From NCBI RefSeq assembly GCF_005877005.1, contig NZ_SSNH01000001.1, forward strand, positions 124,001-188,000: 64,000 bases of DNA. Direction: 5' to 3'. The translations under genes were made by a program, and so were the position numbers. This document shows positions 37,823 through 51,081 of this stretch, one piece after another (positions within the stretch are counted from its first letter, which is position 1; the number at the start of each line of letters is the position of its first letter). The notes under the pieces were generated by a model. It worked only from the letters and a program-made list of their open reading frames with translations, did not search any database and had not been told where the DNA came from. This DNA is from Sinomonas susongensis (GTDB lineage Bacteria; Actinomycetota; Actinomycetes; Actinomycetales; Micrococcaceae).

Positions 37823-39937
37823 GTGGCACTGGACGTGCTTACCGACCTCAGCAAGGTCCGCAACATCGGCATCATGGCGCACATCGATGCCGGCAAGACC
37901 ACCACGACCGAGCGGATCCTCTTCTACACGGGCGTGAACCACAAGATCGGCGAGACGCACGACGGTGCTTCGACGACCGACTGGATGGAGCAGGAGAAGG
38001 AGCGCGGCATCACGATCACGTCCGCCGCCGTTACCTGCTTCTGGAACCAGAACCAGATCAACATCATCGACACCCCCGGTCACGTGGACTTCACGGTTGA
38101 GGTCGAGCGCTCCCTGCGTGTGCTCGACGGCGCCGTCGCCGTGTTCGACGGCAAGGAGGGCGTCGAGCCGCAGTCCGAGACGGTGTGGCGCCAGGCCGAC
38201 AAGTACGACGTGCCGCGCATCTGCTTCGTCAACAAGATGGACAAGCTGGGCGCCGACTTCTACTTCACGGTCGACACGATCGTGAAGCGCCTCGGTGCGA
38301 AGCCGCTCGTCATGCAGCTTCCGATCGGTTCCGAGAACGACTTCGTCGGTGTCGTCGACCTGCTCACCATGAAGGCCCTCGTGTGGCCTGGCGACGCCAA
38401 GGGCGACGTGACCATGGGTGCTGCCTATGAGATCCAGGAGGTCCCCGCGGACCTCAAGGAGCGCGCTGAGGAGTACCGCCACCAGCTCGTCGAGACCGTC
38501 GCCGAGGCGACCGAAGAGCTCATGGAGAAGTACCTCGAGGGCGAAGAGCTCACGGTTGAGGAGCTCAAGGCGGGCGTGCGCAAGCTCACCGTCAACTCCG
38601 AGATCTACCCGGTGTTCTGTGGTTCTGCGTTCAAGAACCGCGGCGTCCAGCCGATGCTCGACGCCGTCATCGACTACCTCCCCTCGCCCCTCGACGTGCC
38701 GGCCATGATCGGCCACGATCCCAAGGACGAGTCGGTCGAGCTGAGCCGCAAGCCGAGCGAGACGGAGCCGTTCTCGGCCCTCGCGTTCAAGATCGCGGCT
38801 CACCCGTTCTTCGGCCAGCTCAACTTCATCCGCGTGTACTCGGGCAAGGCGACGTCCGGCATGCAGGTGCTGAACTCGACGAAGGGCAAGAAGGAGCGCC
38901 TCGGCAAGCTCTTCCAGATGCACGCCAACAAGGAGAACCCGGTAGACGAGCTCCACGCTGGCCACATCTACGCCGTCATCGGCCTCAAGGACACCACGAC
39001 GGGTGACACGCTCTGCGACATGAGCAACCCGATCGTCCTCGAGTCGATGACGTTCCCGGAGCCCGTGATCTTCGTCGCGATCGAGCCGAAGACGAAGGGC
39101 GACCAGGAGAAGCTCTCGACGGCCATCCAGAAGCTCTCCGCCGAGGACCCGACGTTCACCGTCTCCCTCAACGAGGAGACCGGCCAGACCGAGATCGGCG
39201 GCATGGGCGAGCTCCACCTGGACATCCTGGTGGACCGCATGCGCCGCGAGTTCAAGGTCGAGGCCAACGTGGGCAAGCCGCAGGTCGCGTACCGCGAGAC
39301 GATCAAGAAGAAGGTCGAGAAGGTCGACTTCACGCACAAGAAGCAGACTGGCGGTTCCGGCCAGTTCGCGAAGGTGCAGGTCACGTTCGAGCCGCTCGAC
39401 ACTGCGGAGGGGACGTTCTACGAGTTCGAGAACGCCGTGACGGGCGGCCGCGTGCCGCGCGAGTACATCCCTTCGGTCGATGCAGGCATCCAGGACGCCA
39501 TGCAGTTCGGCATCCTGGCCGGCTACCCGATGGTGGGGGTCAAGGCGATCCTCACCGACGGTGCCTACCACGACGTCGACTCCTCGGAAATGGCGTTCAA
39601 GATCGCCGGTTCGCAGGTCTTCAAGGAAGGCGCCCGCCGCGCCAACCCGGTGCTCCTCGAGCCGCTCATGGCGGTCGAGGTGCGCACGCCTGAGGACTAC
39701 ATGGGCGACGTCATCGGCGACCTCAACTCCCGCCGTGGCCAGATCCAGGCCATGGAGGACGCGGTCGGCGTCAAGGTGATCCGCGCGCTCGTCCCGCTGT
39801 CCGAGATGTTCGGCTACATCGGCGACCTGCGCTCCCGGACCCAGGGACGCGCTGTCTACTCGATGCAGTTCGACAGCTACTCCGAGGTGCCGAAGGCCGT
39901 GTCCGAGGAGATCATCCAGAAGTCGCGCGGCGAGTAG
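37823..39937 (+). CDS. fusA: Elongation factor G
   Basis: A 704-aa translocase GTPase, GTG-started. G1 is [16 protein letters not shown]2 region [10 protein letters not shown]3 [10 protein letters not shown]4 NKMD, and the domain IV/V segments [15 protein letters not shown] and [20 protein letters not shown] are present. It is the third gene of the str operon. Confidence 0.97.
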
Positions 39938-40136: not shown

Positions 40137-41327
40137 GTGGCGAAGGCAAAGTTCGAGCGGACTAAGCCGCACGTCAACATCGGCACCATCGGTCACGTCG
40201 ACCATGGCAAGACCACGTTGACCGCTGCCATTTCCAAGGTGCTTGCCGACAAGTACCCGGACCTGAACGAGAAGCGTGACTTCTCGTCGATCGACGCGGC
40301 TCCGGAGGAGCGCCAGCGCGGTATCACGATCAACATCGCCCACATCGAGTACCAGACGGAGAAGCGTCACTACGCTCACGTCGATGCTCCGGGCCACGCC
40401 GACTACATCAAGAACATGATCACCGGTGCGGCTCAGATGGACGGTGCGATCCTCGTGGTCGCCGCGACCGATGGTCCGATGGCCCAGACCCGCGAGCACG
40501 TTCTGCTCGCCCGCCAGGTCGGCGTTCCCTACCTCCTGGTCGCGCTGAACAAGGCTGACATGGTCGACGACGAGGAGCTCCTTGACCTCGTCGAGATGGA
40601 GGTCCGCGAGCTCCTGTCCTCGCAGGGCTTCGACGGCGACAACGCTCCCGTCGTCCGCGTCTCCGGCCTCAAGGCCCTCGAGGGAGACCCCAAGTGGGTC
40701 AAGTCCGTCGAGGACCTCATGGACGCCGTCGACGAGAACGTTCCGGACCCGGTTCGTGACCGCGACAAGCCCTTCCTCATGCCGATCGAGGACGTCTTCA
40801 CGATCACCGGTCGTGGCACCGTCGTGACGGGCCGCGCCGAGCGTGGCACGCTCGCCCTCAACTCCGAGGTCGAGATCGTCGGTATCCGCCCGATCCAGAA
40901 GACCACGGTCACGGGTATCGAGATGTTCCACAAGCAGCTCGACGAGGCATGGGCCGGCGAGAACTGCGGCCTTCTCCTCCGCGGCATCAAGCGCGAGGAT
41001 GTCGAGCGCGGCCAGGTCGTCGTCAAGCCGGGTTCGATCACCCCGCACACCGACTTCGAGGCGAACGTCTACATCCTCTCCAAGGACGAGGGTGGGCGTC
41101 ACAACCCGTTCTACTCGAACTACCGCCCGCAGTTCTACTTCCGTACCACGGACGTGACCGGCGTCATCACCCTCCCCGAGGGCACCGAGATGGTCATGCC
41201 TGGCGACAACACTGAGATGACCGTTCAGCTCATCCAGCCGATCGCTATGGAAGAGGGCCTCGGCTTCGCCATCCGTGAGGGTGGCCGCACCGTTGGCTCG
41301 GGCCGCGTCACGAAGATCATCAAGTAG
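40137..41327 (+). CDS. tuf: Elongation factor Tu
   Basis: A 396-aa GTPase that delivers aminoacyl-tRNA, GTG-started with AGGAGG upstream. G1 [12 protein letters not shown]3 DAPGHADY, G4 NKAD and the C-terminal [21 protein letters not shown] segment are intact. A perfect terminator follows. Confidence 0.98.
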
Positions 41328-41370
41328 TCTCTTCGAGATCTTCGAGGCCGGTAGCAGGCCTTAGCTGAGG

Positions 41371-41408
41371 AAAACCCCGTCGCAGCACTGCGGCGGGGTT
41401 TTCCTTTT
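41371..41408 (+). terminator. Terminator after tuf
   Basis: A 15-bp helix (41371-41384 with 41389-41402, including AAAACCCCG/CGGGGTTTT) is followed by TTTCCTTTT. Confidence 0.92.
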
Positions 41409-41471
41409 GCGCTGCTACGGTAGGAACGCCGGCAGCAGCACAGCCGGCGCACCCGAGGGAGGAAACGCGCC

Positions 41472-41597
41472 GTGGCCTGGATCATCGTCATCGCCCTGGT
41501 CATCGTGATCGTGGGCGGCTATTTCAGCATCCGGAAGAACTTCAAGAACGAGATCGAGCGCGCACGGCGCATCCGCCGCTCCAATCGAGGGGAATAG
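41472..41597 (+). CDS. 41-aa single-span membrane peptide
   Basis: A GTG-started gene missed by a length filter. The N-terminal hydrophobic helix MAWIIVIALVIVIVGGYF is followed by a strongly basic, amphipathic tail rich in Arg, Lys and Glu (FKNEIERARRIRRSNRGE). GGGAGGAA lies about 9 nt upstream. A short upstream promoter-like TACGGT is at 41417-41422. The stop abuts the end of the convergent glycosidase gene. Function unknown; a membrane-anchored basic helix is the visible feature. Note that the tail overlaps no other plausible gene. Confidence 0.55.
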   Translation: MAWIIVIALVIVIVGGYFSIRKNFKNEIERARRIRRSNRGE

Positions 41598-43040
41598 CTA
41601 CGTCCCAGACCCCGCCCGCGCTGCGGTGAGCTGCCGTAGCCACTCGAACGAGGCCTTCGGCGTCCGCTCGAGGGTGTCGAAGTCGACGTGGACGAGTCCG
41701 AAGCGCTGGGTGTAGCCCGCGGCCCACTCGAAATTGTCGAGGAGGGTCCACACGAACCAGCCGGCCAGCCGAACCCCCTCCGCCGGTCCGCCTGGAGCCA
41801 CGGACCGCAGTGCCGACTCGAGATGTGCGGCGAGGTAGTCGATCCGCTCGCTGTCGTCGATCGGCCCGGCCGCAGTAGCGGGCTCGGGAAAGCTCGCGCC
41901 GTTCTCGGTGATGAGGACCGGCGGAAGCGCGTCGCGGTAGCGATGGCGCAGCTGGACGAGCAGGGTCGCCAGGTGTGCGGGCGCGATGGGCCAGCCGAAT
42001 CCGGTGCGGGGGAGTTCTGGAAACTCGGCGAGGTGGAACGGGAGCCGTTGGAGGGCGGCGACAGGGCGGTGCTGCCCGTCGGGCGCCCTCGGCGTTTTCG
42101 AGGCGCCGGCGCCGATGCGGACGGGGTAGTAGTAGTTGAGGCCATAGAAGTCGAGCGGCTCGTGGATGACGTCGAGGTCGTCGGGCCGCACCGCGCGCAC
42201 GAGCGGCGCGAAGTCGCGCTTCGCGATCCACGGGACACGCGGGTATCGGCCCAGCAGGATCGGATCGGCGAAGAGGCGGTTGAAGATGACGTCGAAGAGG
42301 CCCGCGTGGAGACGGTCGAGCGGGCCCCATGATTTCGCCGACACGGGCGCATGGAGGTTGGTGATCCCGATCCTGCCGTCGCGGGTCGCTGCGCGCAGCG
42401 CCTGGACCGCGAGTCCGTGCGCGAGGAGCTGGTGGTGGACGGTGGGCAGGGCTTCGTAGAGGAGCTGCTTCCCGGGGGCGTGAACGCCGAGGGCATATCC
42501 GTTGAGGGTGACGGTCACGGGCTCGTTGAGGGTGACCCACTGGTCCACGCGGTCGCCCAGCCGGCGTCCCGCCTCCTCGGCGTATTCGGCGAACCGCCCC
42601 GCCGTCCCCCGGGAGAGCCACCCTCCGTCCTGCTCGAGGGGGAGTGGGGTGTCCCAGTGGTACAGGGTCACGATCGGGCGGATGCCGGCGTCGACGAGCC
42701 AGTCGAGGAGCCGCTCGTAGAAGGCCCAGCCCTTCTCGTTCCAGGCACCCCGGCCCTCTGGCTGGACGCGAGGCCACGCGATCGAGAGGCGGTACGCATC
42801 GACCCCGAGGCGCGCGAGGAGGGCAAGGTCCTCGTCGGCGCGATGATAGTGGTCGTCGGCGACGTCGGGGGAGGCGCCATCGGCGATCATCCCCGGGGAG
42901 CGCGCGAAGGCGTCCCATCCCGACGGGCCCCGGCCGTCGTCGTCGACCGCTCCCTCGATCTGGAAGGCGGCCGTCGCGACGCCGAGCGTGAAGCCCGGCG
43001 GCAGCAGGGCTGCCAGACGGTCGACGGCGGGGCGCGGCAT
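41598..43040 (-). CDS. Glycoside hydrolase family 1 beta-glucosidase
   Basis: A 480-aa GH1 enzyme (492 aa if started at the ATG at 43076). It hydrolyses beta-glucosides or related disaccharides with retention. The acid/base Glu is in VTLNEPVTV and the nucleophile Glu in LITENGASF, with the N-terminal GFTLGVATAAFQIEGA also typical. There is no signal peptide, so it is cytosolic. I prefer ATG 43040, as the upstream codons are Arg-rich and lack a ribosome site. No sugar transporter gene is nearby. Confidence 0.9.
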   Translation of the reverse strand: MPRPAVDRLAALLPPGFTLGVATAAFQIEGAVDDDGRGPSGWDAFARSPGMIADGASPDVADDHYHRADEDLALLARLGVDAYRLSIAWPRVQPEGRGAWNEKGWAFYERLLDWLVDAGIRPIVTLYHWDTPLPLEQDGGWLSRGTAGRFAEYAEEAGRRLGDRVDQWVTLNEPVTVTLNGYALGVHAPGKQLLYEALPTVHHQLLAHGLAVQALRAATRDGRIGITNLHAPVSAKSWGPLDRLHAGLFDVIFNRLFADPILLGRYPRVPWIAKRDFAPLVRAVRPDDLDVIHEPLDFYGLNYYYPVRIGAGASKTPRAPDGQHRPVAALQRLPFHLAEFPELPRTGFGWPIAPAHLATLLVQLRHRYRDALPPVLITENGASFPEPATAAGPIDDSERIDYLAAHLESALRSVAPGGPAEGVRLAGWFVWTLLDNFEWAAGYTQRFGLVHVDFDTLERTPKASFEWLRQLTAARAGSGT

Positions 43041-43124
43041 GGGCCTATCATCGCGCCGAGCGCGCCGCTTGGCCATCGCCGAAGCGGGGGTTCGCCCGGA
43101 ATCCCGGGCTCGGCACCGCTGGCT

Positions 43125-45143
43125 TCAGTGTGCTGCGGCGGGCGCGCCGGCCAGCAGTGCCGCGATGGCGGTTCCCGCGCGGAGCCCGTCGTCGAACGCG
43201 CGGACGGCGTTGAGCCCGCTCGCGTCCCGGGCGCCGCCGATCACGGTGTACGGGACACCCTCGAGCGCGAGCCCTTCGGCGAGCGAGGCGTGGGGCTCCT
43301 GCCCGGCGGCGAGGATCACCGTGTCGCCGGGGACGAGCTCAAGGGCACCGTCCGGATCGGTGATCTCGACGCCGTCGGCCGTGATCCTGCGGTAGCCCAC
43401 CCCGGTGAGCGTCCGAACGCCGGCGGCGCGGAGCTCGGCGAGGACGGCCCAGCGGGTCGAGGGGCCGATTCCTGCCCCGATCCGCCCGCTGCGGCGCATG
43501 ATGGCGATCTCCCGCCCCGGGTCCGCCTCCGCCAGCAGGTGGGCGAGGTCGACGGCGATTCCGCCGCCGCCGACGATCGCCACGCGGCGGCCCACCCGGG
43601 CCGGCGCCGTGAACGCCTCCCGGTAGTCGAGGACGTGTCCCAGCTCAGCGCCCGGGATCCGTACTCTGCGGGGCACGACGCCGGTCGCGACCACGACATG
43701 CGAGTAGCCCGCGAGGTCCGCCGGTGTCGCCGGGGTACCGGTGAGCACCCGGACGCCGAGCCCCGGAAGGAGGTTCTCGAAGTATCGGATGGTCTCGAGG
43801 AAGTCGGACTTCCCCGGCACCCGGCCGGCTAGCTGGAACTGGCCGCCGATCGCGTCGGCCGCCTCGTACAGGTCCACCCGGACCCCGGCGGCGGCGAGGG
43901 TCGCGGCCGCCTGCAGCCCCGCGGGCCCAGCGCCGACGACGGCGGCCTGTCCGGGCCCGCTGACCGGAGCCTGTGAGGGTGCCTCTTCTGACCGGGGCAG
44001 GGCGGGCAGCGGGATCGGCGGGTAGGCGAGCTCGCGCCCGGCCCTCGGATTGACGAGGCACGAGACGGGCTCGTCGCCGAACGAACGGTCGAGGCACGCC
44101 TCGTTGCAGCCGATGCACGTATTGACGAGCGGGAGCAGCCCCGCGCGCGAAGTCTCGATGATGCGCGGGTCCGCGAGGAAGGGCCGGGCCATGGCCACGA
44201 GGTCCGCGTCGCCGCGGGCCAGCGCCTCCTCTGCCAGGGCGACGGAGTTGACCCGGTTGGACCCGATGACCGGAGTCTCGAACCCGGCCGCCCGGATGGC
44301 CGTCCGCACGCGCCGGGCCACACTGAGCCAGTGCCCGTGCGGGACCAGGGCCTGGACCGTGGGAACCGTCGATTCGTGCCAGCCGACGCCCACGTTCAGC
44401 GCGTCGGCGCCCCCGGCAGCGAGCGCGACAGCCAGGTCGTCGAGCTCGCGGTCGGTGCTCGAGCCGTCCATGAGGTCCGTGCCCGAGGTCCTGACAATGA
44501 CGGGGAACTCCCGTCCGACGGCCTCCCGCACCGCGGCGAGGACGGCAAGCGGGAAGCGGCGCCGTCGCCCGGCGTCGCCGCCCCACGCGTCGTCCCGCAG
44601 GTTGGTGAGCGGAGAGACGAACTGGTTGATGAGATAGCCCTCGGACGCCATGATCTCGACCGCGTCGAAGCCGAGTTCCTTGGCACGGCGGGCGCCCGAG
44701 GCGAAGTCGGCAATGGTGCGCCGGATCTGCTCCTCGTCCATCGCCTCCGGCTCGCACCGGGAGAAGCGGCTGTAGACCGCCGACGGCGCGAGGGGCCTCA
44801 GGCCGAAAGTGGCCTCGAACGCGTAGCGGCCTGCGTGGAAGAGCTGCAGCGCGAGATGGCCGCCGGCCTCGTGGACGGCGGCCGCGGCACGCGTGAGTGC
44901 CGGGGCGGACTCCGGCTCGTTGAGGAGCGCGAAAGTCCGGCCCCCGGAACCCTCGCGGTTCACCGCGGCGCCGCCCGTGATGATGAGGTCGGCCCCGCCG
45001 AGCGCCCGCTCGCGGTAGAACTGGGCGAGCGCGGCTCCGCCGTCGTCGGTGCGCTCGAGGTTGAGGTGCATCGAACCCATGACGATCCGGTGCTTCAACT
45101 CGAGCGTGCCGACTCGCGTCGGCGTGAACGCGCGCTCCGACAT
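43125..45143 (-). CDS. FadH-like ene-reductase (FMN/4Fe-4S/FAD), NADH:flavin oxidoreductase
   Basis: A 672-aa enzyme with an old-yellow-enzyme TIM barrel, an iron-sulfur site and a FAD/NAD(P) domain, in the order of E. coli 2,4-dienoyl-CoA reductase. The catalytic residues equivalent to its Tyr166 and His252 are present as Tyr170 (SEGYLINQF) and His256 (VGWHESTVPT). The cluster ligands are Cys343, 346, 350 and 362 (CIGCNEAC, then x11, C). Nucleotide motifs are VVGAGPAGLQAA and AIVGGGGIAVD. Its ATG overlaps the preceding stop by one base. In the operon context it should reduce a conjugated alicyclic dienoyl-CoA. The general alternative is fatty-acid dienoyl-CoA reduction. Confidence 0.88.
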   Translation of the reverse strand: MSERAFTPTRVGTLELKHRIVMGSMHLNLERTDDGGAALAQFYRERALGGADLIITGGAAVNREGSGGRTFALLNEPESAPALTRAAAAVHEAGGHLALQLFHAGRYAFEATFGLRPLAPSAVYSRFSRCEPEAMDEEQIRRTIADFASGARRAKELGFDAVEIMASEGYLINQFVSPLTNLRDDAWGGDAGRRRRFPLAVLAAVREAVGREFPVIVRTSGTDLMDGSSTDRELDDLAVALAAGGADALNVGVGWHESTVPTVQALVPHGHWLSVARRVRTAIRAAGFETPVIGSNRVNSVALAEEALARGDADLVAMARPFLADPRIIETSRAGLLPLVNTCIGCNEACLDRSFGDEPVSCLVNPRAGRELAYPPIPLPALPRSEEAPSQAPVSGPGQAAVVGAGPAGLQAAATLAAAGVRVDLYEAADAIGGQFQLAGRVPGKSDFLETIRYFENLLPGLGVRVLTGTPATPADLAGYSHVVVATGVVPRRVRIPGAELGHVLDYREAFTAPARVGRRVAIVGGGGIAVDLAHLLAEADPGREIAIMRRSGRIGAGIGPSTRWAVLAELRAAGVRTLTGVGYRRITADGVEITDPDGALELVPGDTVILAAGQEPHASLAEGLALEGVPYTVIGGARDASGLNAVRAFDDGLRAGTAIAALLAGAPAAAH

Positions 45144-45964
45144 CAGCGCGTGGGCCGTTCGGGGATGCTGATCGGCTCGCTCGTCTCGTAGAAGTACGGC
45201 GGCGCGGCGACCGTCATGCCGCCGTCGACCACGAGGGTCTGGCCGGTGATGTAGTCCGAGGTGGGTGAGAGCAGGAACTCGATCGCGTTGGCCATGTCCG
45301 CGATGGTGCCCGGGCGCCCCTTAGGGATCTTCGAGATAACCGAGTCCATGGGGGCCTGTCCGGGGACGTTGTAGAAGTACTCGAGCGAGTCGGAGTCGAT
45401 GAGCCCGCCGTTGACGGCGTTCACGTTGATGCCGTAGGGAGCGAACTCCACAGCCATGTAGCGGACAAATGACTCTACCGCGGCCTTGTAGGAGCCGAGC
45501 GCGGCGTAGGTCGGGAATGCGCGCTGGCTTCCGTAGCTCGTCACTGCGACGATGCGGCCGCCCTGGTCCATGAGCTTCACGGCCTCCTCGCTGCCGAGGA
45601 CGAACGGTCGCACGTTCATGGCGTACGAGCGGTCGAGGTGGTGCGTGCGGAGCTCCATGACGCGCTTGAAGGCAGCCGCGGCCGCGTTGTTCACGAAGTA
45701 GTCGAGCCGCCCGTACGTCTCGGCGACCATGTCGAAGAGGCGCACGATGTCCTCGGGGTTCTCGACGTCGGCCTGGACGGCGATGCCGTCGCCGCCGAGC
45801 TCCTTGAGGCGCTCGACAACGTCCTGGGCGAGCCCGACGTTCTTCTTGTAGTTGACGACCACCTTCGCGCCGCCGGAGGCGAGCTGCTCGGCGAGCTGAC
45901 GCCCGATGCCCCGGGAGGCCCCGGTGATGAGGGCGATCTTGTCTGCGTGGACCTTGTCCGTCAC
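45143..45964 (-). CDS. FabL/ChcA-type short-chain enoyl reductase
   Basis: A 273-aa SDR. The cofactor loop TGASRGIG is at 14-21 and NNAA at 92-95. The catalytic pair is Tyr153 and Lys160, spaced Y-x6-K as in FabL enoyl-ACP reductases rather than the Y-x3-K of ketoreductases, with Ser143 in TSYGS. The family-like stretch VNAVNGGLIDSDSL also resembles FabL. In the context of the adjoining genes it most resembles ChcA, 1-cyclohexenylcarbonyl-CoA reductase. The GTG start overlaps the dehydrogenase stop by 4 nt. The enoyl reductase assignment is inferred from motif spacing and context. Confidence 0.82.
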   Translation of the reverse strand: MTDKVHADKIALITGASRGIGRQLAEQLASGGAKVVVNYKKNVGLAQDVVERLKELGGDGIAVQADVENPEDIVRLFDMVAETYGRLDYFVNNAAAAAFKRVMELRTHHLDRSYAMNVRPFVLGSEEAVKLMDQGGRIVAVTSYGSQRAFPTYAALGSYKAAVESFVRYMAVEFAPYGINVNAVNGGLIDSDSLEYFYNVPGQAPMDSVISKIPKGRPGTIADMANAIEFLLSPTSDYITGQTLVVDGGMTVAAPPYFYETSEPISIPERPTR

Positions 45965-47157
45965 TTCGTCTCCTTCGCGGCAGCGCGGCGGAACACGTCC
46001 CGCGCCACAACAGTCTTCTGGATCTCGTTCGTGCCCTCCTCGAAGCGCTGCGCCCGAGCGTCCCGGTACACGCGCTCGATGGTCTGGGTCTTCCAGTACC
46101 CGAGTCCACCATGGACCTGCAGGGCCTTGTCCGTCACGCGCGTGAGCATGTCGACCGCGGTCATCTTGGCCATGGACGAAAGGGCTCCCGCGGATTCGCG
46201 CCCCTCCTGCCATTGTTCGGCCGCGTGGAGGACGAGCGCCTTCGCCGCCTCGATGTCCGCCTCGTTCTCGGCGATCTGGAACGCAATCGACTGGCGTTCG
46301 GAGAGCTGCTTGCCGAACGTCACGCGGCGCAGGGCGTAGTCGACGGCGAGCTCCTGGGCGCGCTCCGCGAGGCCGACGCAGCTCATGGCGACCGAGATGC
46401 GGCTGGGGGTGAGGAAGCCTCCGAGGGCCACGGCGAGGCCGTCGCCCTCCTCGCCCAGCCGGTTGGCGACGGGAACCGGAGTGTCGGCGAAGACGAGCTC
46501 CGCGTGGTCCGTGCCCCGCACCCCCATGGTCTCGGACGTGTCCAGCACGGTCGCGCCCGGGGCGTGCCGGTCGACGAGGAGCGCCACGGTGCCGTGTTTG
46601 CCCGTGCTGCCCTCGAGCCGGGCGAAGAGGAGCCAGTAGTCGCAGCGGACGCCGAACGTGATGAGGTGCTTGCGTCCCGTGAGGTAGTACGTGTCGCCTT
46701 CGCGCCGCACGGTGCTCGTGATGTCCGCGCCGGTCCCATTGCCCGGCTCCGTGAGCGTGAAGGCGACCTTGATGTCGCCCGCGATCGAGGGCTTGACGAA
46801 GCGCTCCCGCTGGTCGTGGTTCGCGAACGGGTTCATGGCACGCCACGTGCCGTTCACGACGTGCACGATCATGCGGACGGAGGCGTGCGAGCGGGAGAAG
46901 ACCTCCATGAGGCCCATCCACTGGACGAAGCTCAGGCCGTGGCCGCCGAGCTCCACGGGGGCCGCTAGCGAGAGGAACCCTCGCTCCCTGAGCTCTGTCC
47001 ACAGCTCCTCGGGGACCTCGCCCGAGGCCTCGATGCGCTCGGCCCACGCCTCGCCGGGGCCGCGGACCCACGCCTCGACCTCGGCCCTGAGCCGCTCGTA
47101 CTCCGCTTCGGTGAGGGAGCTGCCGCGCCCGTCGAGAGTGATGCTGGTGATGGTCAC
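45961..47157 (-). CDS. Acyl-CoA dehydrogenase
   Basis: A 398-aa FAD enzyme of the acyl-CoA dehydrogenase superfamily. The flavin-binding segment is AFTLTEPGNGTGADITST (about residues 132-149), the C-terminal four-helix domain is RRVTFGKQLSERQSIAFQIAE, and the catalytic Glu lies in RFEEGTNEIQKTVV. The GTG start overlaps the ligase stop, and its stop overlaps the next start (GTGA at both ends), so it is tightly coupled. In this operon it is probably a ring-dehydrogenating or dehydrating/reducing step on an alicyclic acyl-CoA; the direction cannot be told from sequence. Confidence 0.87.
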   Translation of the reverse strand: MTITSITLDGRGSSLTEAEYERLRAEVEAWVRGPGEAWAERIEASGEVPEELWTELRERGFLSLAAPVELGGHGLSFVQWMGLMEVFSRSHASVRMIVHVVNGTWRAMNPFANHDQRERFVKPSIAGDIKVAFTLTEPGNGTGADITSTVRREGDTYYLTGRKHLITFGVRCDYWLLFARLEGSTGKHGTVALLVDRHAPGATVLDTSETMGVRGTDHAELVFADTPVPVANRLGEEGDGLAVALGGFLTPSRISVAMSCVGLAERAQELAVDYALRRVTFGKQLSERQSIAFQIAENEADIEAAKALVLHAAEQWQEGRESAGALSSMAKMTAVDMLTRVTDKALQVHGGLGYWKTQTIERVYRDARAQRFEEGTNEIQKTVVARDVFRRAAAKETK

Positions 47158-50100
47158 TTGCTTCCTCCGTGGTCTGCCCGCTGCGGCGTCAGGTTCCTGG
47201 CCTGTTCCCGGAGCAGGTACTTCTGGATCTTGCCCACCGCGTTGCGGGGGAGCGCGTCCACGATCTCGAGCCGTTCAGGCCAATAGTGCTTGGAGACCTG
47301 GTGCGCGTCCAGATACTCCTGCATCTCCTCGAAGGTCAGCCTGCCGTCCGGGGCCGGCACCACGAACGCGCACGCGCGCTCGCCGAGCCGCTCGTCCGGT
47401 ATGGCCGCGAGGGCAACGTCCTCCACGAGCGGGTGCTCGAACAGGAGCTGCTCGATCTCCGCGACCGGGATCTTCTCGCCGCCGCGGTTGATCACGTCGC
47501 GGACCCTGCCCGTGATGCGCAGGAACCCGGCCTCGTCGATGATGCCGAGGTCGCCCGTGCGGTACCACCCGTCCTCGGTGAAGGCGGCGGCGGTGAGGTC
47601 CGGACGGTCGAGATAGCCCTCGAACATCGTGGGGCTCTTGAGCTCGAAGGTGCCTTCGACGCCAGAAGGGAGGGGGTGCCCGTCGTCGGTCACGATCCGC
47701 AGCTTCACGCCGTCGAGCACACGGCCGTCCGTGCCCCACATCTTGACGGGCTCGTCCGCCGGGGTGGCAAGAGCCCCGAGGCACGTCTCGGTCGTGCCGA
47801 ACGCGCCGCACACGGATGCGCCGAGCACTCGGGTCGCCCGCTCGGCGAGCGCACGTGGCACGGCGGCGCCGGTCACGACGAAGATGCGCAGGCTCTCGGG
47901 CACCTGGCCAGTCTCCTCGACCTTCTTCAGGAGGTCCATGAGGAACGGCGTGGCCGCCTGCACGAACGTGACGCGCCAGCCCTGCATCGCGTCGAGGGCC
48001 CGCTGCGGGTCCCACACCTCCTGCACGACCTGGGGTGCGCCGAGCACGAACGCGAGCCACATGCCGTAGAGGAAGCCGGTCTGGTGGGCGAGCGGCGAGG
48101 GGATGTAGACCGTGTCGTCGCCGGTGAGGCCGAGGTGGCGGGCCTCCATCGCCGCCGCGCGGCTCAGCACGGAGTGCCGCTGGAGGACCGCCTTGGGCTC
48201 GCCGGAGGTGCCCGACGTGAACAGCAGCTGTGCGTGGGCGGAGGCGTCGGGTGCGAGGGCGTCGAGGGCCTCGCGGTCGACGACGACGCGGGCCAGGGCT
48301 TCGTCCCAGTCGTGCCATTCGGGGGCGCCCTCGTCACTTCCCGTGGCTGTGGCGGCGTGGCCCGCAGGGGCCGCGTCGCCGTCGTCGTCGGAGATGACGA
48401 CGACGTGCCGCAGCATGAGCGGGAGGTCCGACCCGCCGTCGTCCTCGCCCCGGATGATCGAGGCGAGTTCGTCGGCATGGCGGCGGCCCCGGAACGAAGC
48501 CGGCAGAATGACGACCTTGGCCTGGGAGCGCCGCAGCGCGAAGGAGACCTCGCGCTCGCGGAAGATGGGCATGATCGGGGCGATGACGGCGCCGATCCTC
48601 GCAGCAGCGACCGCGCATCCGACGAACTCGGCGCGGTTGGGCAGCTGCACCGCCACGCGGTCGCCGGCGCCGACGCCAAGCTGGGTGAGGAGCGTGGCGA
48701 TGCGGTCGGCGCGTTCGTCGAGCTCTGCCCAGGTGCGGTGCTCCGTGACACGCGGTCGGACGGCGACGACGGCGCTCGCGTTCGGCTTCTCGGCCGCCCA
48801 TCGGCGGACCCAGTCCCCGCCGGGCACGGCCGCCGCGGCGTCGACGTCGCGCTGGGTGGCGATCCGCCGAGCGCTGTCTCGCGCGGCCCGCGCCGCGGGC
48901 TTCTTCGGCTCAGGCCGGCGCACCGGGCCGTCCTCGACCCGCATGGACAGTCCGAGGGAGTTCATTGCCGTGAGGAACTCCGGGTAGGAGATCCGGTAGG
49001 CGTTCGGGTAGGTCAGGGTCGACCGGCCCTCGGCAGCGGAGGCCGCGACGGCGAGCGACATGAGGACGCGATGGTCGTTGAACGAGGAGAGATCGGCCGC
49101 CACGAGCCGGCGCACGCCTCGGACCCGCAAGTCGTTGCCGTCGATGCGGAGGTCTCCGCCCATTCCGTTGAGCTGGAGCATCGCGGCCACGCGGTCCGAC
49201 TCCTTCAGGCGGACGTGGGCGACGTTGCGGAAGACGCTCTCGCCGTCCGCGAAGGTGGCGAGAGTGGACAGGATCGGCAGCATGTCGGGGACGGTCCGGC
49301 AGTCCACCTCGATGGGGGAGAGGCGCAGCCCGTCGTGCCGGACGCGGACTGCGTCCACGGAGGGGTCGTAGGCCATGGGGAGGCCCATCGCCGAGACGAT
49401 GTCGAGGAAGTCCGACTCGGGGTGGTCGGACTCGCCCGCACTCGTCTTCCGCAGGCCGTGGAGCACGACGTCGGCGGGCTGCAGCGCCGCGGCGGCAAGC
49501 CCGAAGGCCGCTGAGCCTATGTCCGGCGGCATCACGAGGTCGGCCGGAACGGGCACCTGGTTCGGCTCGATCTCGTAGCGGCGCCAGTCCTCGGAGACAT
49601 TCACGTGCAGGCCGAACCGGCGCATCATGCTCACCGTGAGCTCGATGTAGGTCCGCTCGTTGAACTCGCCCTCCACGGTGATCGTGGTCGGGCCGGTGGC
49701 AAACGGCGCGAGCAGGATGAGCCCGGAGATCCACTGCGAGAGAGTCCCGGCGATGTGGACGTCGCCGCCCGTCGGGCGGTGGCCACGGACGCGGATGGGC
49801 GGGCAGTCGTCGGGGGAGGAGACGTCGGCGCCCATCTGGCGGAGAGCGGCGAGGAGGGGACCGATGGGGCGGCGCTGGAAGTACTTCTGCCCCGTGACGA
49901 TGACGTCGGACTCGCTGAGGGAGGCGAGGCCCACCATGAAGTACAGGGTCGTGCCGGAACTGCCGGCCGAGACGGACTCGCGACGCGGCCGGTAGGGGCC
50001 GCCTTCGACTACGAACGTGTCGCCTACGACGTCGATGCGCGTGCCGAGTCCGCGAAGCAGGCCGACGGTGTACTGGACGTGGCGGGCATCCGTGAGTCCT

Positions 50101-50225
50101 CGGATCCGGCTCACCCCCGGTGCAAGCGAGGCGAGGATGAGCGCTCGGTGGGCGTGGTACTTGGAGTTGGGGACGAAAACCTCGCCCTTGACTGGTGCGG
50201 ACGTTCCGAGGACGGAGAGATGCAT
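47154..50225 (-). CDS. EPSP-synthase-like domain fused to acyl-CoA ligase
   Basis: A 1023-aa fusion. Residues 1-430 are an EPSP-synthase (AroA) fold; residues about 465-1015 are an AMP-forming acyl-CoA ligase with LLFTSGTSGEPKAV, GAFGTTETCLG, DGWYRTGDLGIID and the catalytic Lys in NAVGKIQKYL. They are joined by a Pro/Ala/Arg linker (430-465). By eye the AroA domain keeps Lys22, Arg27, Gln164, Asp314, Lys341-Glu342, Arg345 and His385-Arg386. The residues corresponding to E. coli Asn94, Arg100 and Arg124, which form the PEP side, are Ser89, Tyr95 and Tyr115. It therefore likely acts on shikimate without PEP. An in-frame ATG at 50276 would add 17 residues. The ligase probably activates the alicyclic acid. 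Confidence 0.85.
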   Translation of the reverse strand: MHLSVLGTSAPVKGEVFVPNSKYHAHRALILASLAPGVSRIRGLTDARHVQYTVGLLRGLGTRIDVVGDTFVVEGGPYRPRRESVSAGSSGTTLYFMVGLASLSESDVIVTGQKYFQRRPIGPLLAALRQMGADVSSPDDCPPIRVRGHRPTGGDVHIAGTLSQWISGLILLAPFATGPTTITVEGEFNERTYIELTVSMMRRFGLHVNVSEDWRRYEIEPNQVPVPADLVMPPDIGSAAFGLAAAALQPADVVLHGLRKTSAGESDHPESDFLDIVSAMGLPMAYDPSVDAVRVRHDGLRLSPIEVDCRTVPDMLPILSTLATFADGESVFRNVAHVRLKESDRVAAMLQLNGMGGDLRIDGNDLRVRGVRRLVAADLSSFNDHRVLMSLAVAASAAEGRSTLTYPNAYRISYPEFLTAMNSLGLSMRVEDGPVRRPEPKKPAARAARDSARRIATQRDVDAAAAVPGGDWVRRWAAEKPNASAVVAVRPRVTEHRTWAELDERADRIATLLTQLGVGAGDRVAVQLPNRAEFVGCAVAAARIGAVIAPIMPIFREREVSFALRRSQAKVVILPASFRGRRHADELASIIRGEDDGGSDLPLMLRHVVVISDDDGDAAPAGHAATATGSDEGAPEWHDWDEALARVVVDREALDALAPDASAHAQLLFTSGTSGEPKAVLQRHSVLSRAAAMEARHLGLTGDDTVYIPSPLAHQTGFLYGMWLAFVLGAPQVVQEVWDPQRALDAMQGWRVTFVQAATPFLMDLLKKVEETGQVPESLRIFVVTGAAVPRALAERATRVLGASVCGAFGTTETCLGALATPADEPVKMWGTDGRVLDGVKLRIVTDDGHPLPSGVEGTFELKSPTMFEGYLDRPDLTAAAFTEDGWYRTGDLGIIDEAGFLRITGRVRDVINRGGEKIPVAEIEQLLFEHPLVEDVALAAIPDERLGERACAFVVPAPDGRLTFEEMQEYLDAHQVSKHYWPERLEIVDALPRNAVGKIQKYLLREQARNLTPQRADHGGSK

Positions 50226-50279
50226 GGGTTTGCCCTTTGCGCGAGGGCCGCAGGAGGCGGGGAACCCCAGCGGCATTCA

Positions 50280-50294
50280 ATTAGGATCCCTAAT
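50280..50294. promoter_or_regulatory. Palindromic operator candidate at head of alicyclic-CoA operon
   Basis: ATTAGG-ATC-CCTAAT, a perfect 6-bp inverted repeat with 3-nt centre, AT-rich against a GC-rich background, 55 bp before the ATG at 50225 and just ahead of the alternative ATG. A second palindrome TTCCGGAA is at 50299-50306. On the minus strand a possible -35 TTCCGG and -10 TAATTG at 17-bp spacing flank it, so the site would overlap the promoter. Confidence 0.5.
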
Positions 50295-50623
50295 CATTTT
50301 CCGGAACCGAAACTAGTAAGGGAAGCGCTGGATAGGCAAGGGCCCATCCGCATCGTGGTCAGATTGCTGTCGCAGGGAGGTCGCCTGAGGCTGTCTTCCC
50401 TGGTGTCTTCCAGCCGCACTCCCGGTCGTGGCCGCCCCTCGGGCTCGCGATTGGCCTTCCCGGCTGATCTCTGGCAGACTAGATGAGTTGTTCAAGCGCT
50501 CCTTCGCGTCCCGATCCGGATAATGCCGGGTGCAGGGTCCAAGCTGGAGACCAAATATGACCCACCTCCGCAGAGAAGCTACGGGTACGTGCGCGTGAAA
50601 ATCGCGACACGCCCGACCGCGGG

Positions 50624-50697
50624 GGTCGGAGGGCCGGCTGACTGAGGAACCCGGGATTGCCCGGATTCAGCCAGTGCGGCCTGTGGTGGCCTCGACC
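50624..50697 (+). promoter_or_regulatory. Nested hairpins in the S10 operon leader
   Basis: Three stacked helices (GGTCG/CGACC, GGCTGA/TCAGCC, CCGGG/CCCGG) lie 75-150 bp before the rpsJ start. In other bacteria ribosomal protein L4 represses the S10 operon through its leader; that role here is inferred. Confidence 0.4.
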
Positions 50698-50772
50698 TTG
50701 AATGCCTCGGCAGCCACGGATAGCTGAAACCGAACAGTGCAGCACTGACGACATGAAAGAGAGTCAGACGAT

Positions 50773-51081
50773 ATGGCGGGACAGAAGATCCGCATCCGGC
50801 TGAAGTCGTATGACCACGAGGTCATCGATACTTCCGCCCGGAAGATCGTTGAGACGGTCACGCGCGCAGGCGCAACGGTGGTCGGCCCCGTGCCACTGCC
50901 CACTGAGAAGAACGTGTACTGCGTTATCCGTTCTCCGCACAAGTACAAGGACAGCCGCGAGCATTTCGAAATGCGCACGCACAAGCGGCTCATCGACATC
51001 ATCGATCCGACCCCAAAGGCCGTCGACTCGCTCATGCGCCTCGACCTGCCGGCGGACGTCAACATCGAGATCAAGCTCTAG
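50773..51081 (+). CDS. rpsJ: Ribosomal protein S10
   Basis: A 102-aa 30S protein beginning [20 protein letters not shown] and ending [10 protein letters not shown]. It is the first gene of the S10 operon. Confidence 0.97.

Follow-up and report, generated by a model that had tools for sequence, protein, structure and literature searches.

In a contig of Sinomonas susongensis (NZ_SSNH01000001.1, positions 124,001 to 188,000) we analysed an operon of four minus-strand genes, located at positions 43,125 to 50,225 of the window, by which we mean the whole stretch of 64,000 nucleotides. Judged from its sequence, this operon very probably makes cyclohexanecarboxyl-CoA (CHC-CoA) from shikimate. The reading is based on the observed protein families, key catalytic positions, gene order and co-occurrence of the genes, and the identity of the pathway appears strong: the sequence points to a real and intact CHC-CoA operon of the phoslactomycin (plm) type. 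The pathway as such is known. Here it occurs in a host group and in a place free of polyketide synthases (PKS) for which we found no earlier report, and the open-licence literature yielded no paper linking the operon to Sinomonas or Arthrobacter.

All four genes are present, base-exact and with intact frames. The first (50225-47154) encodes a fusion protein of 1023 aa, in which an EPSP-synthase-like domain (residues 1-431, 48933..50225; Pfam EPSP_synthase, 3.6e-81) precedes an acyl-CoA ligase domain (about residues 466-1023 with the stop, 47154..48830; AMP-binding, 3.4e-69), both matches falling on one protein. It is followed by a PlmL-like protein of the acyl-CoA dehydrogenase family (45961..47157, 398 aa, GTG start; Acyl-CoA_dh_1, 4.4e-41), by a ChcA-like enoyl reductase of the FabL type within the short-chain dehydrogenases/reductases (SDR; 45143..45964, 273 aa, GTG start; adh_short_C2, 1e-61) and by a PlmM-like flavoprotein ene-reductase of the FadH/old-yellow-enzyme type (43125..45143, 672 aa; Oxidored_FMN, 8.2e-67) with four Fe-S-type cysteines. 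Pfam covers all five functions, the best E-values ranging from 4e-41 to 4e-81. The gene types, the fusion and the stop/start overlaps at the three junctions (GTGA, GTGA and TGATG) had been named in the original prediction, which was made from the letters alone, and are confirmed by coordinates, Pfam and the junction letters. Long plus-strand open reading frames over the operon, for example 47169-49514, are read as high-GC shadow frames. The best matches among PDB sequences agree with these assignments, being EPSP synthases for the EPSP domain, acyl-CoA dehydrogenases for the dehydrogenase, the enoyl-ACP reductase FabL (3oic) for the SDR and 2,4-dienoyl-CoA reductase (1ps9) for the ene-reductase.

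In the proposed route, the EPSP-like domain would take unphosphorylated shikimate or a near derivative and prepare the loss of a ring hydroxyl, and the fused ligase would form the CoA thioester. Removal of the remaining functions and saturation of the ring would next fall to three enzymes, namely the dehydrogenase-family protein, the FadH-like flavoprotein and the ChcA-like SDR, the last of which presumably performs the final reduction to CHC-CoA. For the detailed order of the ring reductions we follow work of the Floss, Moore and Reynolds groups.

The first of these steps can be judged from an alignment of the EPSP domains of 61 fusions with E. coli EPSP synthase, whose numbering is used here. 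K22, R27, G96, R124, Q171, D313, E341, R344, H385 and R386 are kept in all 61 domains. The active site is re-tooled in all of them by the replacements S23->Y, R100->Y, S197->E and N336->H, and D49->H is found in 60 of the 61. K411, which we take to be a residue on the phosphoenolpyruvate (PEP) side, aligns with I in 60 domains, and the protein of the window has R one position before. If contact roles are assigned according to the E. coli structures, all 61 fusions retain most of the residues that handle PEP, whereas several on the shikimate-phosphate side are replaced; the fusion domain lacks the canonical shikimate-3-phosphate-side residues of a housekeeping AroA. A separate AroA-like gene in the same genome retains the E. 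coli residues at positions 23, 100 and 197; at position 336 it has H as well. S169 falls into a gap in the fusions and also in the genome's own AroA, so that it is not usable as an argument. Judged from these replacements, the pocket seems no longer to fit a 3-phosphate and probably binds unphosphorylated shikimate or an acid related to it. Together, 61 fused enzymes with a common active-site change open a poorly understood first step of the pathway to experiment.

It is extremely unlikely that the EPSP domain is a mere second AroA and that the four genes are unrelated neighbours. The aroA model TIGR01356 does score above its cut-off on this domain (310.6 vs 287.25 bits). That it is the sole model clearing its curated cut-off among the NCBIfam rows shown has to be held against the CHC-CoA pathway, as has the fact that no product of the operon was seen. 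Against a second AroA, one uninterrupted fused chain is found in 61 of the 63 loci examined (the exceptions are L069 at a contig end and L079 with broken frames), the gene set is conserved, and positions 23, 100 and 197 are substituted in 61 of 61 domains where the genome's own AroA is E. coli-like. The second-AroA candidate was rejected on these substitutions and on the separate AroA-like gene.

The key positions of the other enzymes are conserved too. In all 59 distinct SDR homologues a Y-x6-K motif, aligned with FabL, shows the enoyl-reductase spacing, and G stands where a ketoreductase would have a lysine. The position that we take to be the catalytic Glu of the dehydrogenase family is E in 58 of 59 distinct homologues, one being not aligned, and the four cysteine positions of the ene-reductase are C in 51, 50, 50 and 50 of 51 homologues. 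Before deduplication, the counts for SDR, dehydrogenase and flavoprotein were 64, 63 and 51.

Among the NCBIfam models, the best one for the SDR is FabL (2.8e-77, 259 bits, under the cut-off of 328), the best one for the ligase is cyclohexanecarboxylate-CoA ligase (TIGR03208, 465 bits, under the cut-off of 792), and the dehydrogenase shows a distant kinship to the cyclohexane-1-carbonyl-CoA dehydrogenase model. The latter two could suggest an operon which degrades an alicyclic acid (cyclohexanecarboxylate or shikimate) via CoA esters; a CoA ligase and an acyl-CoA dehydrogenase of distantly related families belong to the bad/ali and to the aerobic P450-type degradation of cyclohexanecarboxylate. 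Such degradation is reported for Arthrobacter and Sinomonas (PMC9795900, in excerpt). In five Arthrobacter/Specibacter loci, moreover, the gene next to the cassette belongs to a cluster in which 3HCDH and ECH domains were found in the one member scanned (L036). We nevertheless regard a catabolic role as very unlikely. A hydratase, a thiolase or a P450 would be expected there; no hydratase or thiolase family was found by Pfam in the four operon proteins, hydratase, ring-opening or P450 genes of such a pathway were not found in the operon, and orthologous sets sit in PKS and nonribosomal peptide synthetase (NRPS) clusters. An EPSP-like domain or enzyme is also not known to take part in bad/ali or P450-type degradation of cyclohexanecarboxylate. 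The catabolic operon was rejected on the missing hydratase/thiolase families and on the aerobic route starting, according to the excerpt of PMC9795900, with a P450. Best hits that are catabolic for all four genes, with unrelated partners in other genomes, had been named as the outcome that would speak against the original prediction; we looked for this pattern and did not find it.

The co-occurrence of the genes was examined by scanning the genome_contigs collection with the EPSP-domain alignment and two strict peptide patterns. This yielded 59 loci with 61-98% identity, hosted by Streptomyces, Arthrobacter and close kin, Cellulomonas, Microbacterium, Homoserinimonas, Microlunatus, Actinoplanes, metagenome-assembled genomes (MAGs) of Eremiobacterota, and others. 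EPSP domain, ligase, dehydrogenase, SDR and ene-reductase occur in this order in 34 of the 59 loci, a count which includes L079 in its broken frames and L063 with an ene-reductase in two pieces. Only the SDR is missing at the site in 14 loci, only the ene-reductase in eight, and the fusion stands alone in three, one of them at a contig end. The SDR is found elsewhere in the genome for all 14 loci lacking it at the site; in a search of 25 genomes including these carriers, an SDR of 59-76% identity was found in each (two of the 25, G327 and G443, look like the same genome). For the eight loci without an ene-reductase, enzymes of 43-47% identity exist elsewhere in the genomes and may be ordinary FadH. 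The 12 Sinomonas genomes that lack the fusion showed no ene-reductase match at E<=1e-60.

At closer range, the fusion is clearly an accessory trait. Five of 98 close relatives have it in full, as do five of 396 genomes across the order (4 of 109 genera), with two of the five carriers common to both searches, and an SDR at E<=1e-60 occurs in six of the 98 relatives, namely the five fusion carriers and G018. Three of 15 Sinomonas genomes carry the fusion: the genome of the window, S. humi and S. terrae. The operon proteins of the window share 86-97% identity with their counterparts in the other two. The Micrococcaceae-like host foreseen from the letters was right, the genus being Sinomonas. The window has a G+C content of 68.15%, with 67.86% over 180 kb of the genome sampled, and the published value for S. 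susongensis is 68.64%. For one 20-kb stretch of S. terrae, the window genome comes second in closeness after S. humi, with 84% identity over the best 3.9 kb, which is similar to the published average nucleotide identity of 84.3 between S. susongensis and S. terrae. A second 20-kb stretch gave 78% to S. terrae, and in the ribosomal region the value is 90.1%, against 91.5% for S. humi.

In a tree of the 61 fused chains, built by a quick method, Cellulomonas plus 12 Arthrobacter form the sister group of the three Sinomonas rows (support 96), and Streptomyces, Actinoplanes, Microlunatus and Eremiobacterota fall on another side (support 98). Spread by plasmids was considered and rejected, with no match among 72,556 plasmid records at E<=1e-100. 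Some individual loci deserve mention. Five-function cassettes are present in MAGs of Candidatus Eremiobacterota, a phylum outside Actinomycetota (L072, L073 and L076). The longest branch belongs to a fusion from the same family as Sinomonas (L145, G415:C1:1563779-1566853), 54% identical to that of the window and adjoined by SDR and ene-reductase. The genome of Streptomyces sulphureus has two fusion copies (L067 and L074), and the L074 copy is adjoined by a LuxR-type regulator instead of dehydrogenase, SDR or ene-reductase. In Microbacterium elymi (L079) the frames of the cassette are split at several places, either by sequencing error or by decay.

The Sinomonas operon sits between a GH1 glycosidase gene (41598..43076, minus strand; Glyco_hydro_1, 6.2e-132), which lies 48 bp downstream of it, and rpsJ (50773..51081, plus strand), encoding S10, which forms the other border of the insertion site. 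The divergent region between operon and rpsJ spans 50226..50772. Beyond the GH1 gene lie tuf (40137..41327, plus strand), encoding EF-Tu, and fusA (37823-39937), which precedes it; both names derive from gene order and matches in relatives. The GH1 gene was judged to mark the insertion site and not to be part of the pathway. The ribosomal neighbourhood had been noted in the original prediction, together with the comparison of neighbouring genomes upstream of rpsJ as a useful check. This comparison showed the junction to be empty in 11 of the 12 non-carrier Sinomonas, in which GH1 and rpsJ are divergent neighbours 322-480 bp apart; in the twelfth (G002) no GH1 was found at this junction. The carriers, all three with the operon at this place, have 7650-7722 bp between the two genes. 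Twelve Arthrobacter loci likewise have their cassettes within the tuf-rpsJ interval (seven measured). The length of this interval, obtained for 28 of 30 loci, ranges between 535 bp and 13.7 kb, which suggests that it (41328-50772 in the window, and its counterparts in relatives) is an insertion hotspot beside the ribosomal operon. Ten Arthrobacter loci also have a conserved open frame of 1704 to 1999 aa between rpsJ and the cassette; in L028 (2520-7721), the sole member scanned, it gave no Pfam match.

Such a patchy occurrence, in 3 of 15 Sinomonas with the junction empty in nearly all others, could also mean that the organism of the window has taken up the cassette but expresses it hardly or not at all. 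A simple scan found no sigma-70 consensus in 50226..50772, and S. susongensis lacks a C18:1 peak, discussed below. Actinobacterial promoters are, however, frequently missed by a scan of this kind. The intact frames, the high identity to the proteins of the other two carriers, the kept catalytic positions and the tight stop/start overlaps speak against silence, which we consider rather improbable. The position has a wider meaning: it places an antibiotic-precursor pathway in bacteria without a visible antibiotic cluster at the site, which suggests that the supply of CHC-CoA is a portable metabolic trait.

With regard to the use of CHC-CoA, the window contains no ketosynthase (KS) or PKS stretch detectable with FabF-like KS and PKS probes (E<=1e-3), as had been foreseen, and an NRPS probe matched the ligase of the operon only. 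A PKS or NRPS consumer next to the operon was thus not found within the 64 kb; for the synthesis of CHC-CoA as such it is not needed. In relatives the situation is different. In L077, L078, L082 and L088, which belong to one cluster, the cassette directly follows the end of a PKS stretch of about 2956 aa, and in L075 that of a PKS of 2450 aa (L078 and L075 were scanned, the others assigned by clustering with L078). A DegT aminotransferase and an NRPS-cluster gene lie near the cassette in L083 (Streptomyces rishiriensis), L059, L060, L062 and L068, with DAHP synthase II called in four of these five; only members from L083 and L059 were scanned, and the NRPS of L083 has the arrangement A-T-TE. 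A KS of one cluster is present on the same fetched stretch as the cassette, before or after it, in 14 of 61 loci (two members scanned). Elsewhere in the six Arthrobacter/Cellulomonas genomes examined for it (L138-L143) there is a second operon of SDR, acyl-CoA ligase and FabF-like KS, the ligase being present in all six and the KS called in five (not in L138). In G018 (L146) the second operon is present without an EPSP fusion.

These contexts, with a PKS or NRPS-type cluster adjoining the cassette in some Streptomyces and in Actinoplanes, make it a real possibility, albeit short of probable, that CHC-CoA serves a dedicated small molecule, with its assembly encoded elsewhere in the genome, and not the membrane lipids. 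The second operon may be counted on the same side, and no cyclohexyl acid is named in two Sinomonas tables (PMC10394333; PMC6617354, in excerpt). Against it stand the lack of KS and PKS in the window, with type I PKS elsewhere in the genome not searched separately, and the distribution of the specialised KS. None of the 15 Sinomonas has this KS, which is 67-80% identical to the probe, and their matches at E<=1e-50 reach at most 46%; in the 98 relatives, a KS of at least 67% occurs in four.

It is plausible that fatty acids are the likeliest sink, on the ground of published fatty-acid tables which are ambiguous. Since the specialised condensing enzyme of some relatives is missing in Sinomonas, CHC-CoA would enter ordinary type II fatty-acid synthesis as a further starter beside the branched ones and yield some omega-cyclohexyl fatty acid, a course that we put at close to even chances, though slightly below. 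In the asukamycin producer, CHC-CoA is a substrate of the fatty-acid synthase and omega-cyclohexyl acids make up 3.1% of the total (PMC4147253, in excerpt). The Sinomonas profiles are published MIDI tables. For summed feature 8 (C18:1), S. terrae has 7.3% and S. humi 8.3%, with none detected in S. susongensis, S. atrocyanea or S. soli (PMC10394333, Table 3). For C18:1 omega-7c, the available part of PMC6617354 gives 16.2% in S. humi and no detection in S. gamaensis, S. susongensis and S. albida. The methyl ester of 11-cyclohexylundecanoate (M+ 282) is reported to co-elute with the C18:1 ester on an SLB-5ms column (excerpt of PMC7760578), so the peak called 'C18:1' in S. humi and S. terrae may be misnamed. 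A re-reading of this peak by mass could correct published chemotaxonomic tables.

Several observations speak against this use of CHC-CoA. The cassette is also carried by Streptomyces diacarni and S. reniochalinae (L064, L087), and both show '-' for summed feature 8 and 18:1 omega-9c in the table section of PMC10100901. S. susongensis, the species of the window, is without C18:1 (PMC10394333; PMC6617354, in excerpt), and with the window taken as S. susongensis the peak occurs in only two of three Sinomonas carriers. Finally, all 15 Sinomonas have the desaturase family PF00487, for which S. terrae shows three matches, so that true C18:1 is possible; being present throughout, the desaturase does not discriminate carriers from non-carriers. 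PF07977, for unsaturated synthesis of the FabA type, is found in 4 of 15 Sinomonas, none of them among the three carriers.

A broader reading joins four claims, and we regard it as unlikely to hold in all of its parts together. PKS-free CHC-CoA operons would be a lipid trait that is widespread among soil Actinobacteria and some Eremiobacterota and has been overlooked; Arthrobacter and Cellulomonas would have this trait divided between two operons, of which one brings a FabF-like condensing enzyme of its own and a second acyl-CoA ligase; part of the tabulated 'C18:1 omega-7c', as in S. humi and S. terrae, would really be 11-cyclohexylundecanoic acid; and the EPSP-like domain would represent new chemistry on the EPSP-synthase fold, using unphosphorylated shikimate.

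The assignment to CHC-CoA can finally be compared with known systems. The omega-cyclohexyl synthesis of Alicyclobacillus, Sulfobacillus and Curtobacterium would share the starter type derived from shikimate (Sulfobacillus passage of PMC4378227). None of the three genera is among the 59 loci found with the two strict peptide patterns. The ansJKLM-chcA genes of S. collinus for ansatrienin and the CHC-CoA genes for asukamycin presumably have the same functions; no record named S. collinus or S. nodosus was among the 59 loci. Partner genes of the ansatrienin type do occur with the cassette: DegT and NRPS genes in S. rishiriensis, S. cinerochromogenes and three more Streptomyces, with the DAHP synthase in four of the five. 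The L083 locus looks ansatrienin-like, and its host S. rishiriensis is reported to make mycotrienins. The window differs in having no such neighbours, according to the NRPS probe. Compared with L083, its ligase, EPSP part, SDR and dehydrogenase are 61-72% identical and the ene-reductase 56%; for L078, directly behind a PKS, the values are 58-70% and 53%, and the SDRs of both loci are 64-66% identical to that of the window. With the CHC-CoA cassette of Cropp et al. 2000, a bkd mutant of S. avermitilis no longer has to be fed cyclohexanecarboxylic acid for doramectin (PMC4581413, in excerpt).

The closest parallel is the phoslactomycin/lactomycin cluster. The gene table in the excerpt of PMC5852498 lists PKS, plmJK (AMP-dependent synthetase and ligase), plmL (short-chain-CoA dehydrogenase), ChcA (cyclohexenylcarbonyl-CoA reductase), plmM (NADH:FMN oxidoreductase) and regulators; for plmJK it gives the synthetase and ligase name only, and an EPSP part is likely by analogy with the homologous loci. 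L078, L082 and L088 show a PKS upstream, the plm gene order and a LuxR-regulator cluster gene downstream (L074 member scanned). The Sinomonas operon differs by its place between GH1 and rpsJ, without an adjoining PKS. Its four genes agree in type as well as in order with plmJK, plmL, chcA and plmM of that table (PMC5852498, in excerpt), which supports its identification as a CHC-CoA cassette.

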